This document shows positions 21,994-29,396 of a stretch of DNA of 44,896 nt, one piece after another (position 1 is the first letter of the stretch; each line of letters begins with the position of its first letter). Made by a program: the position numbers and the translations under genes. This DNA is from Planctomycetia bacterium (GTDB lineage Bacteria; Planctomycetota; Planctomycetia; Gemmatales; HRBIN36), in contig JAEUIE010000024.1 of the NCBI GenBank assembly GCA_016795155.1, positions 1-44,896 of the forward strand, given 5' to 3'. The notes beneath the pieces were generated by a model. The model was not told the origin of the DNA, did not search any database, and saw only the letters and a program-made list of their open reading frames with translations.

Positions 21994-23691
21994 ATGGTTC
22001 CCCTGTTTTGTCCGCGCTGTCAGCGGGCGAATCCTCCGGAAGCGTTGTTCTGCCATTTCGATGGCACGGGGCTTCGCACCGGAACCGATAGCAAGCAGGC
22101 AACGAACACTGCACTGGGCCGTGAGTTTGTTTTCCCATCTGGAAGACGTTGCCGATCATTCGATGAATTGATCAGTGCCTGTTCACTGGAATGGCCAGCT
22201 GCCCGCAGCATGTTACAGCAGGGTGGAATGCGACAATTTCTGGCCAGCATTGGTCGCATGGATCTGGCACAGCAGGCCGATAAGGCTGCAGCCCATATCG
22301 ATCCTGATCTGGGGCTTGATCAGTTGCTTGCCGCTTTTCCCTCTAAGGACGTTATTCAGCCCAAGCTCGATATTTCTCCTCGCCGACTGCATCTGGGGAC
22401 AGTGCGTGCAGGCGATTCGCGAGACATTCAGTTACAGGTGCTTAATCGAGGCGCAAGATTGCTGCACGGCATGCTGGAAGTGCGTGGCGAAGGATGGCTT
22501 CGTGCCGGTTCGGATGGTGGCGGCCCTCCGAATGGCAAAGTGCCCATCAAAACCGGGCAACAGCAGAACTGTCCACTGCATATTGAAACTCGCGGGTTGC
22601 CAGCCGGGCAGCAATATGCAGCAACCCTTGCAGTCATGACCAATGGTGGCACTGCAGAAATCCCCGTGACGTTTGATCTGGCATCAATTCCCTTTTCACA
22701 GGGAATACTGGCTGGTTGCGATTCACCAAAAGACCTGGCATCACGCATGAAGGATGCACCCAAGCAGGTTGCCCTCCTCTTGGAAAAAGGCGATGTCGAA
22801 CGCTGGTTTACCCAGAATGGCTGGCGTTATCCGGTACAGGGGCCGCCTGCACAGGGTGTTGCAGCAGTTCAACAGTTTTTCGAAGGCATGGGGCTATCCA
22901 AACCACCGGTTCTGAAACTGAATACGGATCATCTTGCACTGGAAGCCAGGTCTGGAGCTGTGGTGCAGGCACAGATCAAGCTGGAAACTTCTGCCAAGAA
23001 ATGGGTCTATGCCTTTGCTGAATCGAACGTCTCCTGGATACAGATTCTCACGCCCCTGACCTGTGGCGGACAATCATCAATACTGGATATCGTGGTTCAA
23101 ACCCGCGGGCTGGCTCCGGCAACTACGCACACCGGTACTGTCAATATCGTGGGCAATGGCGGACAACGTCTGCAGGTGAAAGTGACCGTAGCTATCACAG
23201 CAGCGCTGCCGGTGATGCAGAGATTTTTGCAGCCGGTCGTGGCCGGTTTTCTGGCTGGGATGATCGCCAGGCTGTTCTGCATCCTTCCCGATATGGCAGC
23301 ACGGTATGGGACATCGCTGCCCGTAAGCAGCTATGTTCAACGATTCACGCTTCTAACTTTCTGGATTGTCATTCTGATTTTCTGGTACGGTATCCGTCAG
23401 CAAGGGAAACTGCGTGATTATGTGTCTGCTGCCATCACGGGTGGTTTTGCAGGATTGATCGGCATGAGCACCTTGGCCCAGATGATGCTATTTCTGGATG
23501 AGTTAGCCTCATGGGGTGATTGGCCTGGTTCAGCGGTATTATCGTGGAGCCTGCTGGGTGCCGGTGTCGGGCTACTGATTTCATTGTGCGGACAGCGTGG
23601 CAGAGCCATGATGACCGCAGTCAGTGAGTCTCTGGGCAAACTGGCGGGATGGATCCGCTGGAAACCATTAGCTCATTTTTTGGGAGCTTAG
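21994..23691 (+). CDS. Zinc-ribbon, duplicated helical/beta-sandwich module, four-TM protein
   Basis: This 565-residue protein heads the signalling cluster. It starts with a degenerate zinc ribbon (C6, C9, C20, with D23 in place of the fourth Cys). Two tandem modules follow, each a short helical segment and a beta-sandwich: helical SFDELISACSLEWPAARSML then ISPRRLHLGTVRAGDSRDIQ, and helical DVERWFTQNGWRYP then the sandwich beginning LKLNTDHLALEARSGAVVQA. Four transmembrane helices lie near 415-432, 451-467, 480-502 and 513-533. The beta domains resemble Ig-like/ASPM-type sandwiches. It could be the membrane anchor or a target for the downstream kinase, but no enzyme motif is seen and its function is unknown. 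Confidence 0.75.
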   Translation: MVPLFCPRCQRANPPEALFCHFDGTGLRTGTDSKQATNTALGREFVFPSGRRCRSFDELISACSLEWPAARSMLQQGGMRQFLASIGRMDLAQQADKAAAHIDPDLGLDQLLAAFPSKDVIQPKLDISPRRLHLGTVRAGDSRDIQLQVLNRGARLLHGMLEVRGEGWLRAGSDGGGPPNGKVPIKTGQQQNCPLHIETRGLPAGQQYAATLAVMTNGGTAEIPVTFDLASIPFSQGILAGCDSPKDLASRMKDAPKQVALLLEKGDVERWFTQNGWRYPVQGPPAQGVAAVQQFFEGMGLSKPPVLKLNTDHLALEARSGAVVQAQIKLETSAKKWVYAFAESNVSWIQILTPLTCGGQSSILDIVVQTRGLAPATTHTGTVNIVGNGGQRLQVKVTVAITAALPVMQRFLQPVVAGFLAGMIARLFCILPDMAARYGTSLPVSSYVQRFTLLTFWIVILIFWYGIRQQGKLRDYVSAAITGGFAGLIGMSTLAQMMLFLDELASWGDWPGSAVLSWSLLGAGVGLLISLCGQRGRAMMTAVSESLGKLAGWIRWKPLAHFLGA

Positions 23692-23711
23692 GAGACTGTT
23701 GAATAGCCGTG

Positions 23712-23743
23712 GCAGGGTTATTCGGTATTCCGAATGACCCTGC
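23712..23743 (+). promoter_or_regulatory. Strong stem-loop between cluster genes 1 and 2
   Basis: GCAGGGTTATTCGG (23712-23725) pairs with CCGAATGACCCTGC (23730-23743) with one wobble in 14 and a TATT loop. It lies 20 bases after the stop of the membrane gene and about 165 bases before the VWA start. No T-run follows, so it may be an mRNA-processing or attenuation element rather than a full terminator. The word GCAGGGTCAT recurs at 23769. Confidence 0.5.
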
Positions 23744-23776
23744 TGGATTTGCAAAAAACCGGCAGTTTGCAGGGTC

Positions 23777-23794
23777 ATACATGAGTACATGTAT
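23777..23794 (+). promoter_or_regulatory. Operator-like palindrome upstream of the VWA gene
   Basis: ATACATG (23777-23783) and CATGTAT (23788-23794) form a perfect 7-bp inverted repeat with a 4-base spacer, about 115 bases before the VWA start codon. It is the right size for a dimeric repressor or activator site. No known consensus is recognised. Confidence 0.35.
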
Positions 23795-23908
23795 AACCTT
23801 GCCACATCTGTCGGCTTTTCATCAAACGACATGCACTTTTTTTTAAGCAAGATCAGCAGTGATAGAGCGAATAACGAAACGAGACATTTTCCAAGAAGAG
23901 GAATTGCC

Positions 23909-25189
23909 ATGCCTGCCAGGATACATCTAGAACGCATGCTCCATCGCAATAGTGTGGCGGTACGAGGCGATTCCATTGCCAGCTATGCTTTGGTTAAAGT
24001 GATCCCTGCGGGGGATGGCAGTGCACCGATGATGCCCGTCAATCTGGCCCTGGTGCTCGATGTTTCAGGAAGCATGTATGAAGAAGATGGAACGGGCATC
24101 AGCCGACTGAAACGAGTGCAGCAGGCGGCACTGGAAGCAATCCCCTTGTTGCGTCCTTCCGACACGCTGACCATCGTGGCCTTCGGGCATACTTCTGCGG
24201 TAGCATTGCCTCCCACGCCACTCACGCAACTGGCAGCAATCGAAAAGACCATCAACACTATTGACCGGTTTGAAATTGATCCGGGCGGCACGGCCATGGA
24301 CAAAGGTTTGCAACTGGCACTCGAACAGCTACGCGGCGTCAAAAAAGAGAACACGCTGACACATGTGCTGCTGCTCACCGATGGTGAAACTTCGGGTGAA
24401 CAGAATTGCCGGGAACTTGCCAAGTCGATGGCAGACAGCAAGGAACAGTTGACGGTGGTAGGAGTAGGCACCGAATGGAATGCATCACTCGTGAAAGACC
24501 TGGCGCAACTGAGTGCTGGAAAATGGTATTACGTGGATGAAGCCAGGAAGGATGATACGCAACGGGTCTTCCTGGAGGAGTTTGCCCATCTGCGATCCAC
24601 GGTCTTCCGCGATGTCAAACTGCACATCAAGCCGATGAAAGATATTCGCGTCAAGCGCTGCCGACTGGTGTTGCCTGAAATTCGTGAACTGACACTCGAT
24701 GGTTTGGAAGAACGTCATCTGATCGCAAACCTGGGCACGATGGAGCGTGACAAGCCGACACGATATGTGCTGGATTTAAGTCTGCCTCAGCGTCCCGATG
24801 GCCAGTATGTCATTGCCCAGATTGAAGTGAGTTATGTCACCTCGGAAGGCCCCGGTACGACAGGCCTAGTGCCATTGCAGATTACTTACAGTCTTGAATC
24901 GCCGAGCTATGTAAATGCTGAGGTAGCCAAGCATATCGATGAAGTGCAGATATTTGAACTCTCCAATAATCTTCAATCTGCACTGGAATCTTCCAATACC
25001 GATGAAGCCAAGCGACTGGCCCAGGCCATTGAGCGCAAGGCGACTGTGCTGGGGCCACGCGGAGCCAAGAAAACCATGCTGGCAAGGCAGGCCCTGGCCG
25101 AACTGGATGGCGGTGGCAAGGTTTCGAAAAAGACCATGCTGGCACTCGATGACAGTGCGCGACTTGCGGAAGAGATGCCAATACCTTAA
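23909..25189 (+). CDS. von Willebrand factor A domain protein
   Basis: This is 426 residues from the ATG at 23909, with AAGAGGAA 9-16 bases upstream. The frame is open to 23789 but that part is not domain-like. The VWA domain (about 44-220) has a complete MIDAS: LVLDVSGSM (D51, S53, S55), PGGTAM (T128) and LLTDGE (D158). A beta-rich domain follows (VKLHIKPMKDIRVKRCRLVL), then a helical region (DEVQIFELSNNLQSALESSN, DEAKRLAQAIERKATVLGPR). There is no signal peptide or membrane helix, so it is cytoplasmic. In TerY-type systems such VWA proteins bind metal and phospho-signalling partners. Here it lies between the membrane protein and the FHA protein. Confidence 0.9.
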   Translation: MPARIHLERMLHRNSVAVRGDSIASYALVKVIPAGDGSAPMMPVNLALVLDVSGSMYEEDGTGISRLKRVQQAALEAIPLLRPSDTLTIVAFGHTSAVALPPTPLTQLAAIEKTINTIDRFEIDPGGTAMDKGLQLALEQLRGVKKENTLTHVLLLTDGETSGEQNCRELAKSMADSKEQLTVVGVGTEWNASLVKDLAQLSAGKWYYVDEARKDDTQRVFLEEFAHLRSTVFRDVKLHIKPMKDIRVKRCRLVLPEIRELTLDGLEERHLIANLGTMERDKPTRYVLDLSLPQRPDGQYVIAQIEVSYVTSEGPGTTGLVPLQITYSLESPSYVNAEVAKHIDEVQIFELSNNLQSALESSNTDEAKRLAQAIERKATVLGPRGAKKTMLARQALAELDGGGKVSKKTMLALDDSARLAEEMPIP

Positions 25190-25236
25190 TCTGAGAACTA
25201 ACAGGACATCTAAAACACCACTGCGGAATTCGCTTC

Positions 25237-25866
25237 ATGATTACATGCCAATATTGTGCTTTCAAGAACGAAGATGGAACCCTGTTCTGCGAGCGCTGCA
25301 AATCGGATCTGCAACTTCAACCGGAGGGTAAGAACATGTCAGATGAAACGAGCGTACCTGTCACGGTACCTTTGAATGACATACCCATGGCAGAGCCGCT
25401 GACTGACACCAGCAGCTACGAAGCGGTGAAGACCCTCAATGTCGAACAGGCACAGCATCAGATGGAGACCAGCAGTTTCCCGCCGATGCAGGTTGAAGTT
25501 ACCGATACTATTCCGACTGCTGATCCTGTATCTGCTCCGTCTCTGACCACGCCGAAGCTGATTGTGATTCGCGGTCAGAAACTCAATGTGGAATATCCCA
25601 TCTACACGGGCGAAAACTACATTGGCCGTACCGATGAAAAGCCGGTCGATGTCGATCTGGAAGATCAGGAATCAACCGAGCGCATCTGGTGTTCCCGCCA
25701 GCATGCCCGCATTGTTTCCTCGGAAACCGGACTTAGCATCGAAGACCTGGGCAGCCAGAACGGCACCTTTGTCAATCGAGCCCGTATCTTCCCTGGCCAG
25801 GTCAGGCCGCTAGTCAACGGTGATGTCATCCAGGTGGGAACAGTGCAACTGAAACTGAAGATGTAG
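25237..25866 (+). CDS. Zinc-ribbon FHA domain protein
   Basis: This 209-residue protein has an N-terminal zinc ribbon (C4/C7, C18/C21: ITCQYCAFKNEDGTLFCERC). An acidic, Thr/Ser-rich linker (about 30-105) could be phosphorylated. A C-terminal FHA domain (about 107-209) has the phosphothreonine-binding residues: GR at 130-131, SRQHARI from 153 and NGTF at 175-178. FHA domains bind phosphothreonine, so this protein can dock on products of the kinase encoded next. It starts 47 bp after the VWA stop, and the kinase starts 2 bp after its stop, which indicates tight co-expression. Confidence 0.92.
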   Translation: MITCQYCAFKNEDGTLFCERCKSDLQLQPEGKNMSDETSVPVTVPLNDIPMAEPLTDTSSYEAVKTLNVEQAQHQMETSSFPPMQVEVTDTIPTADPVSAPSLTTPKLIVIRGQKLNVEYPIYTGENYIGRTDEKPVDVDLEDQESTERIWCSRQHARIVSSETGLSIEDLGSQNGTFVNRARIFPGQVRPLVNGDVIQVGTVQLKLKM

Positions 25867-25868
25867 TT

Positions 25869-27299
25869 ATGCCTATCCTGACGCGGTGCGAGCATTGCCA
25901 GAAATTGGCCCGGGTGGCTGACATTTTTGCTCAGCGTCAGGTACGCTGTCCGTTCTGTAAGCAGATATTCACGGCACGAACCACAGAAGATGAACTGCCC
26001 ACGGCAGTACGTCCGCAAGGCAGTACGCCACAACTTGCCAGTGGCGTGGTTCTGCCTCGCCCGGCTGATTCCTCGCAGCAGCTCACTGCACTCAATGGTT
26101 CAAGCTCTTCTATCCCAACAAGCTGTCCAACCTGCAAGATTGCGCTCAAGAATGGCAGTTGTTCGCAGTGTGGCTGGGTGCCACGTACCAATGGCGTATC
26201 GATTGATGCGGAAGAGCAGCCACTGATCTGTACCAACCCGGCTTGTGGCACTGCCAATTCCCGTCAGGCTCGGTACTGTGCCCGCTGTCAGGCCATGCTG
26301 CCCAGCCCGACTGGAACCGTACTTCATGATCGTTACCGGGTGGATAGACTGCTGGCAATTGGTGGTTTCGGCGGTGTCTACCTCGCTCACGATGTGAAAG
26401 CCAACCGGCCTGTTGCCATCAAAGATATGCTGGCAGCAGACCAGGCGGAGTTTGCAACGCGTTTGAACTTTTTCCGCCGCGAGGCAGAAATCCTGAGATT
26501 GCTCGAGCATTCGCCTATTGTTCCCAAAGTTTTCGACTTTATTGAAGATGGCCAGTCGGCACATCTGGTTATGGAGTACATCCCAGGCAAAGACCTGCTC
26601 AAGATTCTGGAAAGCCAGGGGCATCGTCCGTTTCCGGTTGATCTGGTGATCACCTGGGCCAAGCAGATTTGTGATGTTCTGACTTTGCTCCATTCCCAGC
26701 AGCCCAGCATCATTCACCGCGATTTGAAACCTGATAACATCATGTTGCTGGAGGATGGCACCAATATCCGGCTGATTGATTTCGGCACGGCACGGGAACT
26801 CGGCAAGACAGCCCGAAGCCGGGTTGCGGCCAAAACCAGGGTGTATACCGAAGGGTACGCTCCGCCGGAACAGGTCATTGGCAAGCCGGAATTACGCAGT
26901 GATTTGTTCGCATTAGCGGGGACACTTTACCAGCTTCTCACCGGAAAAGCGCCGGAAGGGCAGTACACAGCACTGGAATTGCGTGATATGCTTATGGCAC
27001 CGGAAGGGAAAATACCTCCGGAGCAGCGCTGGCTGTACGAAATGATCGCGACTAACCTGGCGGAAGATGCCAACGACCGGTACTTTTCAGCCAGGGAATT
27101 CAAGACAGATTTGCAGCGGCGTGCGGTGACCGTGTCTACAGCCTGCCCGGCTTGCAGACATGTCAACAAGGTGCGGGAGCCACATTGTACCCAGTGTGCT
27201 GCCCCTTTAACCGAGCCGATGCACGGTTGTGTCACTTGCGGGAAGGTGAATCGCCAGGGATCACGTTTCTGCACGCAATGCGGCGGTCGGCTGCGTTAA
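25869..27299 (+). CDS. Soluble Ser/Thr protein kinase with five zinc ribbons
   Basis: This is a 476-residue cytoplasmic kinase. Ribbons lie at C7/C10-C27/C30, C86/C89-C98/C101 and C121/C126-C137/C140 before the kinase, and at C426/C429-C440/C443 and C454/C457-C468/C471 after it. The kinase domain (about 154-415) is complete: glycine loop GGFGG (165-169), VAIK with K185, helix-C Glu near 205-207, HRDLKPDN with D285, DFG with D304, and APPEQ at 331-335. An activation loop rich in Thr/Ser/Arg lies between. It has no transmembrane helix or PASTA repeats, unlike many bacterial kinases. It begins 2 bp after the FHA gene and is followed 15 bp later by the phosphatase gene. Confidence 0.95.
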   Translation: MPILTRCEHCQKLARVADIFAQRQVRCPFCKQIFTARTTEDELPTAVRPQGSTPQLASGVVLPRPADSSQQLTALNGSSSSIPTSCPTCKIALKNGSCSQCGWVPRTNGVSIDAEEQPLICTNPACGTANSRQARYCARCQAMLPSPTGTVLHDRYRVDRLLAIGGFGGVYLAHDVKANRPVAIKDMLAADQAEFATRLNFFRREAEILRLLEHSPIVPKVFDFIEDGQSAHLVMEYIPGKDLLKILESQGHRPFPVDLVITWAKQICDVLTLLHSQQPSIIHRDLKPDNIMLLEDGTNIRLIDFGTARELGKTARSRVAAKTRVYTEGYAPPEQVIGKPELRSDLFALAGTLYQLLTGKAPEGQYTALELRDMLMAPEGKIPPEQRWLYEMIATNLAEDANDRYFSAREFKTDLQRRAVTVSTACPACRHVNKVREPHCTQCAAPLTEPMHGCVTCGKVNRQGSRFCTQCGGRLR

Positions 27300-27314
27300 T
27301 CACGAGGATATGCG

Positions 27315-29396
27315 GTGCCTACTTCCCCACAGAATGATCCTCCTCCCAGCCGGGGTGGCATCTGGAATCGTCTGTGGGCGCCTCGTCTTGAATCAAAGTC
27401 TGATGAAAATGCTGTACCGGGTTCCAGTGGTGATGTGGAAATACCCGCAGATGCACTCGCACCCATCTGGGATTCAGCAACGGATACCGCTCACCTGCAT
27501 CCGGTAGCATCGCCAACGGAAGCTCTGGAACCATCTGAGATTCCCATTCCTTCGATCCCGGTGCCGGTTTGTCCAGCCTGTTCTGCAACACTGGATGAGA
27601 AAGCGACCTATTGCCTGGAATGCGGCCTGGTCCTGCCGAAGGAAAAAATGGAACCGCTCCCCGCAGCGATAAGGGTGGAGCCTGCGCCAGACTGGCATGA
27701 ACGCTACAAGCCAGAACAGCCGCTTCCGAGTCGGCCCAGTGTGCAGCGGTGGCTGGCATTGGCGAGACAGGAAAAAAGTCCGAAGCAGGTTGAAGTTTAT
27801 TACTCGCTCAAACGCTCCGCTGTGACCGAGCAGGAAATCGCCACTCCGGAAGATGAAATGGTGAACCTGCAGGCACCGCTCAAGCAACTGCATAGTGGCT
27901 CAGCTCCGCTGCCTGTTTCCGCTGAATCGCTCCATTGGCCGGGAGCACACTGGCTTCACCAGATGATCCAGAAGTTGCCAGCAGTCATGCCAGCCATTCG
28001 GGAGTTTACCGAAGAAGAAGCTGCAGAAATTCTGGTGATTGATCCGCCAGAAGGAACCAATCTTTGGGATGCCTGGGAAAAATCGCCTACCCTGGTAGAT
28101 CGCTTCCGCTGGCTTGCCGAGATTGCAGAGTTGCTGCAGAAACTACATCAGCATAACGTGGTGATGGAGGCGCTCCGGCCTGAAATGTTTGTCGTCAATG
28201 CCGGTGGCCATATCGTGCTTGCCGATTTGACGGAACTGCTGCCTATACCTGTTCCCTCCATAGCACAGATGAAAGGTGCGTTGTCCACTGCGCCGGAACT
28301 GGTGCTGGCCCCGGAACTGGCTGATGCCAGCGTGGACTTGTATCCCTTCGGCGCTTTGGTTTACGCCCTGCATCATGGCAGGGAATTGACCGATCTCGAT
28401 TTTGATGCGTACGGAGTGCCTCGCTCGTTTGTCAGCATCTTTCCCGATGGACATCCCCTCTTTACCCAAGTGGTACTGAAGACGTTTACCCGTTTTGTCG
28501 AGCAGCGATACCCAACCCAGGAAGATGACCCTGACCAGACAGGGTTTACAGAACTGATCGCTCAATTGCGGGCAGGTGAACGTTCAGCCCAAGCGTTGCG
28601 CTACGATGCAGTAGGCTGGTCTTCCACGGGGCTGGCACGGGCCACAAATGAAGATGCCTTCGCAGTCTTTCATGCCAGTGCTTACGAGCAGGATCGCTGG
28701 GGTGACCAGACCATGGTTATCCTGGCTGATGGCATGGGTGGATGCAATGCCGGCGAAGTGGCAAGTGCGATGGCCATCAACACCATACGGCGTGAGCTTT
28801 GCAGCAGAGATCCGTGGAAGGTGTTCCACGATCAGGATCCCAGTCTGCCAGTGGTGGTTGAGGAAGAGAAAATTCTCGAGATGATGCACGACGCAATTGA
28901 GACCGCGAATTCCACCATTCACACGGCGGCTGAGCAGGGGGATGGTACGCAGATTGGCATGGGCTGCACCTGTGAAGTCGGTTTCCTCATGCAGGGTAGG
29001 CTGTACATGGGGCATGTGGGTGACAGTCGAACATACCTCTATCGCGAGGGCGCCATCCGTCAACTGACGCAGGATCAGACACTGGTCAATCGCCTAGTTT
29101 CGATGGGTGTTATCAATCAGGAAGAAGCAATCAATCATCCGCGTCGACATGAACTCGATCAGGCCTTGGGTTCATCACATCCGGTGCAGATACAACTCAT
29201 CAGTGAGCCGTTGGAGGTAGGCGATGCCCTCATTTTCTGTTCGGATGGCTTGACAACGCATGTCAATGATCGTTCCATCAGCGAAGTGCTGCGTAACACA
29301 GCATCGGCAGAAGCAGCAGCACGACGACTGGTCAACCTCGCCAATGCCCTGGGTGGCAGTGATAACGTGACGGTGGTAGTAGTGCGGGTGGCGTAA
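27315..29396 (+). CDS. Zinc-ribbon pseudokinase-PP2C phosphatase fusion
   Basis: This is 693 residues from the GTG at 27315, with GAGG just upstream. A zinc ribbon sits at C86/C89-C100/C103. Residues ~200-420 resemble a protein-kinase C-lobe in which key residues are lost: the HRD/KPxN loop reads MEALRPEMFVVN and the DFG position reads ADLTE, so it should be catalytically dead. Residues ~430-693 are a complete PP2C phosphatase: ATNEDAF, VILADGMGG (D472), GHVGDSR (D570), FCSDGLT (D644) and GGSDNVT (D683). It would remove phosphates placed by the neighbouring kinase, and the pseudokinase part may sense or dock. There is no membrane helix. Confidence 0.9.
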   Translation: MPTSPQNDPPPSRGGIWNRLWAPRLESKSDENAVPGSSGDVEIPADALAPIWDSATDTAHLHPVASPTEALEPSEIPIPSIPVPVCPACSATLDEKATYCLECGLVLPKEKMEPLPAAIRVEPAPDWHERYKPEQPLPSRPSVQRWLALARQEKSPKQVEVYYSLKRSAVTEQEIATPEDEMVNLQAPLKQLHSGSAPLPVSAESLHWPGAHWLHQMIQKLPAVMPAIREFTEEEAAEILVIDPPEGTNLWDAWEKSPTLVDRFRWLAEIAELLQKLHQHNVVMEALRPEMFVVNAGGHIVLADLTELLPIPVPSIAQMKGALSTAPELVLAPELADASVDLYPFGALVYALHHGRELTDLDFDAYGVPRSFVSIFPDGHPLFTQVVLKTFTRFVEQRYPTQEDDPDQTGFTELIAQLRAGERSAQALRYDAVGWSSTGLARATNEDAFAVFHASAYEQDRWGDQTMVILADGMGGCNAGEVASAMAINTIRRELCSRDPWKVFHDQDPSLPVVVEEEKILEMMHDAIETANSTIHTAAEQGDGTQIGMGCTCEVGFLMQGRLYMGHVGDSRTYLYREGAIRQLTQDQTLVNRLVSMGVINQEEAINHPRRHELDQALGSSHPVQIQLISEPLEVGDALIFCSDGLTTHVNDRSISEVLRNTASAEAAARRLVNLANALGGSDNVTVVVVRVA

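Follow-up and report, generated by a model that had tools for sequence, protein, structure and literature searches.

A contig of 44,896 nucleotides from a Planctomycetia bacterium of the order Gemmatales (GCA_016795155.1, JAEUIE010000024.1; this whole stretch is called the window here) carries a cluster of phospho-signalling genes at positions 21994–29396 of the + strand. Five co-directional open reading frames (ORFs) were confirmed there, encoding a membrane protein (MEM), a protein with a VWA domain (VWA), an FHA-domain protein (FHA), a Ser/Thr kinase (KIN) and a pseudokinase–PP2C phosphatase (PPK) (Table 1). The VWA, FHA, Pkinase and PP2C domains score well above Pfam curated cut-offs, and an earlier sequence-only reading of five co-directional genes with these domains agrees with our ORF, Pfam and motif results in everything except the start of VWA. 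Judging from profile comparisons described below, the experimentally studied system nearest to this cluster is the archaeal ArnA–ArnB pair, rather than TerY-P or type VI secretion.

Table 1 Features of the cluster in the window.
Feature	Position	Strand	Evidence
MEM, 565-residue membrane protein	21994..23691	+	ORF, Pfam, alignment, AlphaFold model, motif regular expression
Interspersed double-hairpin repeat, ~118 bp, in the MEM–VWA gap	23698..23816	.	Fold z = -5.0, genome matches
VWA, 426 residues, full MIDAS	23909..25189	+	Pfam, relatives' alignment, motif regular expression, purine-rich upstream sequence
FHA, 209 residues, zinc ribbon + linker + FHA domain	25237..25866	+	Pfam, alignment, motif regular expression, PDB profile search
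KIN, 476-residue Ser/Thr kinase with five zinc ribbons	25869..27299	+	Pfam, motif regular expression, relatives' alignment
PPK, 693 residues, zinc ribbon + pseudokinase + PP2C	27315..29396	+	Pfam, NCBIfam, motif regular expression, profile alignment

Domains and intact residues of the five proteins

The presence of motifs in the window proteins was checked by regular expressions. KIN retains intact VAIK, HRDLKPDN and DFG catalytic motifs and carries five zinc ribbons, three of them at the N-terminal end and two at the C-terminal end; their 20 cysteines are each conserved in 89–94% of 18 relatives. PPK has a complete set of phosphatase motifs (NED, DGMGG, GDSR, SDGL and DNVT) and one zinc ribbon of four cysteines. 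None of VAIK, HRD and DFG was found in its kinase-like part, while the PPK profile aligns with protein kinases at ~1e-13 over residues ~230–420; the label 'pseudokinase' is right, because the alignment to kinases persists and the catalytic motifs are gone. Motifs and profile thus agree with the expectation of a complete kinase beside a PP2C fused to a degenerate one.

The VWA frame is open from 23789, but the most likely start is the ATG at 23909, because conservation with relatives begins there and the purine-rich AAGAAGAGGAA lies in front of it; the longer frame is spurious, as it runs from the interspersed repeat in the MEM–VWA gap. With this correction, the intergenic gaps are 217, 47, 2 and 15 bp. 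The metal-ion-dependent adhesion site (MIDAS) is complete (D51xSGS, T128 and D158; motifs DVSGS, GGT and TDG), and the domain that bears it is followed by a beta-rich middle and then by a conserved C-terminal region, in which T389, S406 and T409 are invariant in all 40 VWA proteins compared. The window genome has 21 VWA matches in total.

FHA has a single N-terminal zinc ribbon (C4, C7, C18 and C21); in 17 aligned relatives the ribbon cysteines are invariant and the FHA domain is present. This domain keeps its phosphothreonine-binding residues (GR, SRQH and NGT). The linker between ribbon and domain is Pro/Ala-rich and highly variable, and no conserved Ser/Thr column was found in it among 39 relatives; phosphorylation of the linker is therefore unlikely to be the main event, which disfavours the earlier suggestion that KIN acts on this linker. 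On conservation, the VWA C-terminal region appears the better candidate phospho-acceptor.

In MEM, three cysteines and an invariant Asp-Gly (CxxC...CxxDG; C6, C9, C20 and D23) represent a degenerate zinc ribbon, so that, as had been proposed, four of the five proteins carry ribbons (one each in FHA and PPK, five in KIN and the degenerate one in MEM). Pfam gives MEM a weak match to DUF5717_N. Its AlphaFold model (mean predicted local distance difference test score 81.9; residues 41–400 mostly >90) shows a helical plus immunoglobulin-like (Ig-like) module twice, at residues ~56–230 and ~245–402, in keeping with the duplication seen earlier in the sequence, followed by ~5 C-terminal membrane helices (residues ~407–553). 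Model-based fold comparison places the Ig folds in the ASH/HYDIN/SPD-2 type. The N-terminal ~400 residues form a recurring module that is joined to several different C-termini within a genome. Downstream of MEM, the repeat in Table 1 consists of two strong hairpins with a common GCAGGGTTAT and has 29 matches in the genome (75–100% identical), that is, about 28 further copies; because this repetitive element splits MEM from VWA, MEM may form a transcription unit of its own.

The neighbouring genes in the window are housekeeping genes, encoding a zinc-dependent dehydrogenase, DUF2617, a member of the phosphoenolpyruvate (PEP) mutase/isocitrate lyase family, citrate synthase and an Lhr-type helicase; these surroundings are not a defence island.

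Gene order in Gemmatales and sister cassettes on plasmids

Of 102 genomes of the order, 40 have a member of the VWA family, one copy in each. Scanning named genomes with the VWA alignment yielded 40 contigs, 39 of them with a true VWA, labelled as Gemmatales, Gemmataceae or other Planctomycetota (a few contigs of metagenome-assembled genomes are probably mislabelled); a scan of genome contigs with the single PPK sequence gave no match where the VWA alignment query succeeded. The FHA gene follows VWA in 38 of the 39 named loci and PPK is usually immediately 3' of KIN, so the recurrence of this order in relatives, which the sequence-only reading had put forward as a check, was found, and the order is conserved far beyond chance.

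The fullest cluster has eight genes: FHA3, MEM, VWA, FHA, MEML, FHA2 (a membrane FHA protein), KIN and PPK. The recurrent order is VWA-FHA-MEML-FHA2-KIN-PPK, with FHA3-MEM in front in five loci (L108, L109, L110, L111 and L127). Unbiased clustering of neighbours returned six broadly recurring families, namely VWA, FHA, MEM/MEML, KIN, PPK and FHA2; other recurring neighbours were rejected as parts of the cluster, being confined to a group of close relatives or to a handful of loci. In some genomes the set is split into VWA-FHA-MEML and FHA2-KIN-PPK, and Zavarzinella formosa (L126) has a bare VWA-FHA-KIN-PPK, without MEML or FHA2. The window has MEM-VWA-FHA-KIN-PPK, with FHA3, MEML and FHA2 not present in it, and MEM is missing from many VWA loci. 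The core of the cluster is VWA-FHA and KIN-PPK, not MEM. The earlier picture of a self-contained membrane phospho-signalling module therefore holds for the conserved cluster and for its link to the membrane, given by MEML and FHA2 in fuller loci, but not for MEM as a core component.

MEML, a large receptor-like family paralogous to MEM, combines a zinc ribbon and Ig modules with a single membrane helix and with predicted outside beta-domains that carry the motif DTxIGxNDGVPFTxPG (L044 7041–9650, L086 6190–8805 and others). A Pfam scan of MEML gave no family at or above cut-off, and a fold search with the outside domain returned only generic beta-sandwich proteins (such as polysaccharide lyase 5nok, TM ~0.2); as the fold matches are generic, we claim no ligand. 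The MEML ectodomain has no match in the window genome, which encodes a single distant FHA2-like membrane FHA protein away from the cluster. This lone gene (G000:C5:127264-128169; L137 9264–10169) adjoins one for a protein with sigma-70 regions 2/4 and a DUF2807 head. In one Gemmatales genome the MEML-FHA2 pair is tandemly duplicated (L104 12335–19871).

A plasmid protein search located adjacent VWA, FHA, pseudokinase–PP2C and kinase genes on plasmids of Tolypothrix, Trichormus, Gloeothece and Nostoc, and the same four-gene core on Deinococcus megaplasmids, including that of D. radiodurans. The cyanobacterial/Deinococcus VWA profile, run against the window genome, picks out the window VWA at 114.5 bits, with the next place at 31 bits; PP2C alone has other, equally good matches elsewhere in that genome. 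Profile–profile comparison of the Gemmatales and cyanobacterial/Deinococcus families gave E = 4.7e-37 for VWA and E = 3.2e-48 for PPK (pseudokinase plus PP2C). By these scores, the kinship with the plasmid cassettes exceeds shared domains, and the VWA link is reciprocal. The plasmid clusters (DRA0331–DRA0334 in Deinococcus) have the same four core proteins as the window, but in differing gene orders and with no MEM family annotated; the C-termini of their kinases have other parts (TPR or membrane helices), and no zinc ribbon was found in the two of their PP2C proteins that were scanned by Pfam. DRA0331, DRA0333 and DRA0334 are upregulated together 3.7–4.3-fold in an oxyR mutant of D. radiodurans (PMC2225504), the single piece of expression evidence that was found; we equated DRA0331–DRA0334 with our locus L154 by matching annotations and order.

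The annotation of that locus, on plasmid 3 of D. radiodurans DRR11, divides the zinc-ribbon/FHA gene into abutting pieces of 225 and 88 residues (L154 6441–7384); it is intact in Deinococcus sp. QL22, and the split is probably a frameshift or sequencing error. Directly 3' of the cassette lies a gene for a zinc ribbon–kinase–SH3–beta-helix protein (L154 9277–12240) that is annotated solely as beta-helix. The cyanobacterial cassettes have more VWA genes, a serine hydrolase, an ARC6/PARC6-like gene and GTPase genes on their 5' side (L155 1076–5254, L156, L157 and L160), which may belong to a larger conflict-type system.

Comparison with ArnA–ArnB and a candidate switch

In Sulfolobus, unphosphorylated ArnB is held by the zinc finger of ArnA; once ArnC has phosphorylated threonines in the C-terminal bundle of ArnB, the FHA domain attaches tightly and higher complexes arise, which PP2A takes apart (PMC12852372, PMC7472852 and PMC6509490). 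The full-length FHA-family profile, searched against the PDB, finds ArnA best (5a8i, 5.7e-22; 8s05_C, 6.6e-22), followed by OdhI (8.5e-14), a lead that arises because zinc ribbon and FHA domain share one chain. The ArnB chain, 8s05_A, is matched by the VWA profiles of Gemmatales (4.4e-7) and of cyanobacteria/Deinococcus (6.2e-13), and the cyanobacterial tails carry TRQIS/TRKIS, like the TTRRIS/TRKIS of ArnB. As in the ArnA–ArnB part of the archaellum network (Sulfolobus acidocaldarius and Saccharolobus islandicus), adjacent genes in the window encode a zinc ribbon–linker–FHA protein and a MIDAS VWA protein with a C-terminal extension, and a kinase of the Hanks type and a Ser/Thr phosphatase would serve the pair. 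With matches to both chains, ArnA–ArnB is the closest studied system, which the earlier comparison with TerY-P and type VI secretion had overlooked.

Several observations weigh against carrying this likeness too far. The profile of the FHA domain alone is slightly nearer to OdhI/GarA (1.2e-11) than to ArnA (7.8e-10), BatB-type VWAs outscore ArnB for the Gemmatales VWA profile, and the ArnB-type TRxIS motif is missing from Gemmatales VWA tails. When the region after the VWA domain was searched against the PDB with the cyanobacterial/Deinococcus profile, neither an ArnB match nor any relevant relative was found, so that, by this profile, the C-terminal four-helix bundle that carries the phosphothreonines of ArnB, beside its VWA domain and split beta-sandwich, is without a sequence match. 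The kinase and phosphatase of the arn system are not described as neighbours of arnA–arnB, whereas in the window they lie in the same cluster. The window system further differs in being bacterial, in having membrane proteins attached, in its PP2C-type rather than PP2A-type phosphatase and in the fusion of that phosphatase to a pseudokinase. Given the FHA-only scores, the ranking of BatB and the unmatched C-terminal region, strict membership of the ArnA/ArnB families is not established; on present evidence, the cluster would work like ArnAB.

From the profile matches to both chains, the Arn mechanism, the invariant T389, S406 and T409 and the unconserved Ser/Thr of the FHA linker, we propose by analogy that the cluster may be a bacterial ArnA–ArnB-like phospho-switch with its own kinase and phosphatase, a proposal that we regard as evenly poised between right and wrong. 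In such a circuit, whose substrate, complex and direction of output we infer, the FHA zinc ribbon would make a loose contact with the VWA protein. The activity or location of KIN would be set by a membrane input (MEM in the window; MEML, with its predicted extracytoplasmic domain, and FHA2 where the cluster is fuller). As writer, KIN would phosphorylate the VWA C-terminal region, with T389, S406 and T409 as candidate sites; FHA, as reader, would bind the resulting phosphothreonines and lock into a tight, possibly oligomeric complex representing the output, whether 'on' or 'off'. The eraser would be PPK, steered by its pseudokinase to strip the phosphates and free the complex.

Competing explanations and implications

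The FHA-only scores would also suit a circuit of the GarA/OdhI type, in which KIN phosphorylates a threonine in the N-terminal tail of FHA, the FHA domain folds back and a metabolic enzyme is freed or inhibited, VWA being an accessory. FhaB and OdhI are listed by NCBIfam as well, the intact phosphothreonine site is shared with GarA, OdhI and FhaB, and genes of central carbon metabolism (for a PEP mutase/isocitrate lyase family member and for citrate synthase) adjoin the cluster. We nevertheless think this unlikely: no conserved phosphothreonine motif was found N-terminal to the FHA domain, in the variable linker described above, the constant neighbour is a VWA gene and not an enzyme, and the central-carbon genes are not kept around relatives. 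GarA, OdhI and FhaB are not known to have a zinc ribbon or a VWA partner. Similarly unlikely is a membrane-sensor-centred module, with MEM/MEML and FHA2, taken as receptor and phospho-dependent scaffold, at its core and VWA-FHA as no more than cytoplasmic output, of which the window, its receptor lost, would hold a vestigial or rewired form. MEML and FHA2 do lie mid-cluster in fuller loci, and the window genome lacks a MEML ectodomain match and has its one FHA2-like protein elsewhere; against this, the window proteins have kept all their catalytic and binding residues, and VWA-FHA-KIN-PPK occurs alone, independently, in Zavarzinella. That core and the comparable Deinococcus/cyanobacterial cores without MEM annotation indicate that the four genes can stand alone.

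A slightly less probable account is a TerY-P triad with added FHA and membrane parts, acting as a metal-sensing or defence-associated phospho-switch. The window VWA, PP2C and kinase with C-terminal ribbons fit the published definition of TerY-P (VWA, PP2C and a kinase with a C-terminal zinc ribbon; PMC11090510), such triads occur in some conflict systems (PMC7159879), and the cyanobacterial versions are on plasmids with VWA and GTPase genes nearby. However, the window differs in the pseudokinase on its PP2C, in the long C-terminal extension of its VWA protein and in its near-constant FHA partner, and there is one cluster per genome in housekeeping surroundings. The TerD family (PF02342) was not found in the window genome by a search that was positive in two controls. 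PADLOC defence models gave general kinase-domain and PP2C similarity, with none for VWA or FHA; the PD-T4-6 and mad6 matches were rejected as general kinase-domain similarity. Control of type VI secretion by threonine phosphorylation, in the style of PpkA/PppA/Fha1, is very improbable, although kinase, PP2C and FHA make up the same regulator set and the window genome encodes VipA/VipB. These genes lie on another contig (G000:C60:21597-22055; L162 9553–12165), so the earlier statement that Ter and type VI genes are lacking holds across the genome for TerD but not for type VI secretion. VipA is present in 45 of the 102 genomes of the order and in 16 of 40 cluster carriers, compared with 17.6 expected (Fisher p = 0.54), and no annotated type VI genes are near the cyanobacterial or Deinococcus plasmid cassettes; neither locus nor co-occurrence links the window cluster to this system.

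Returning to the ArnAB-like switch, full-text searches of open-access papers found no description of this cassette, of the plasmid clusters as a system, or of a counterpart of ArnAB in bacteria that brings its own kinase and phosphatase, and in the 2026 ArnAB paper bacterial VWA proteins appear solely as structural look-alikes. It is a possibility, which we rate somewhat below the switch itself, that this is a widespread bacterial module, an ArnAB-like switch with a kinase and a pseudokinase-steered PP2C that in Gemmatales is connected to a family of transmembrane receptors (zinc ribbon plus ASH-type Ig modules). If so, archaeal ArnAB would be one branch of a switch architecture spanning Planctomycetota, Cyanobacteria and Deinococcota. 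The switch would also explain the constant gene cluster across many uncultured Gemmatales genomes, and the pseudokinase fused to the phosphatase would gain a role. The output route of ArnA–ArnB in archaea is still unsettled; here kinase, phosphatase, reader and substrate would lie side by side, making the circuit expressible and testable, and the D. radiodurans sister cluster, responsive to loss of OxyR, offers one place to test it.

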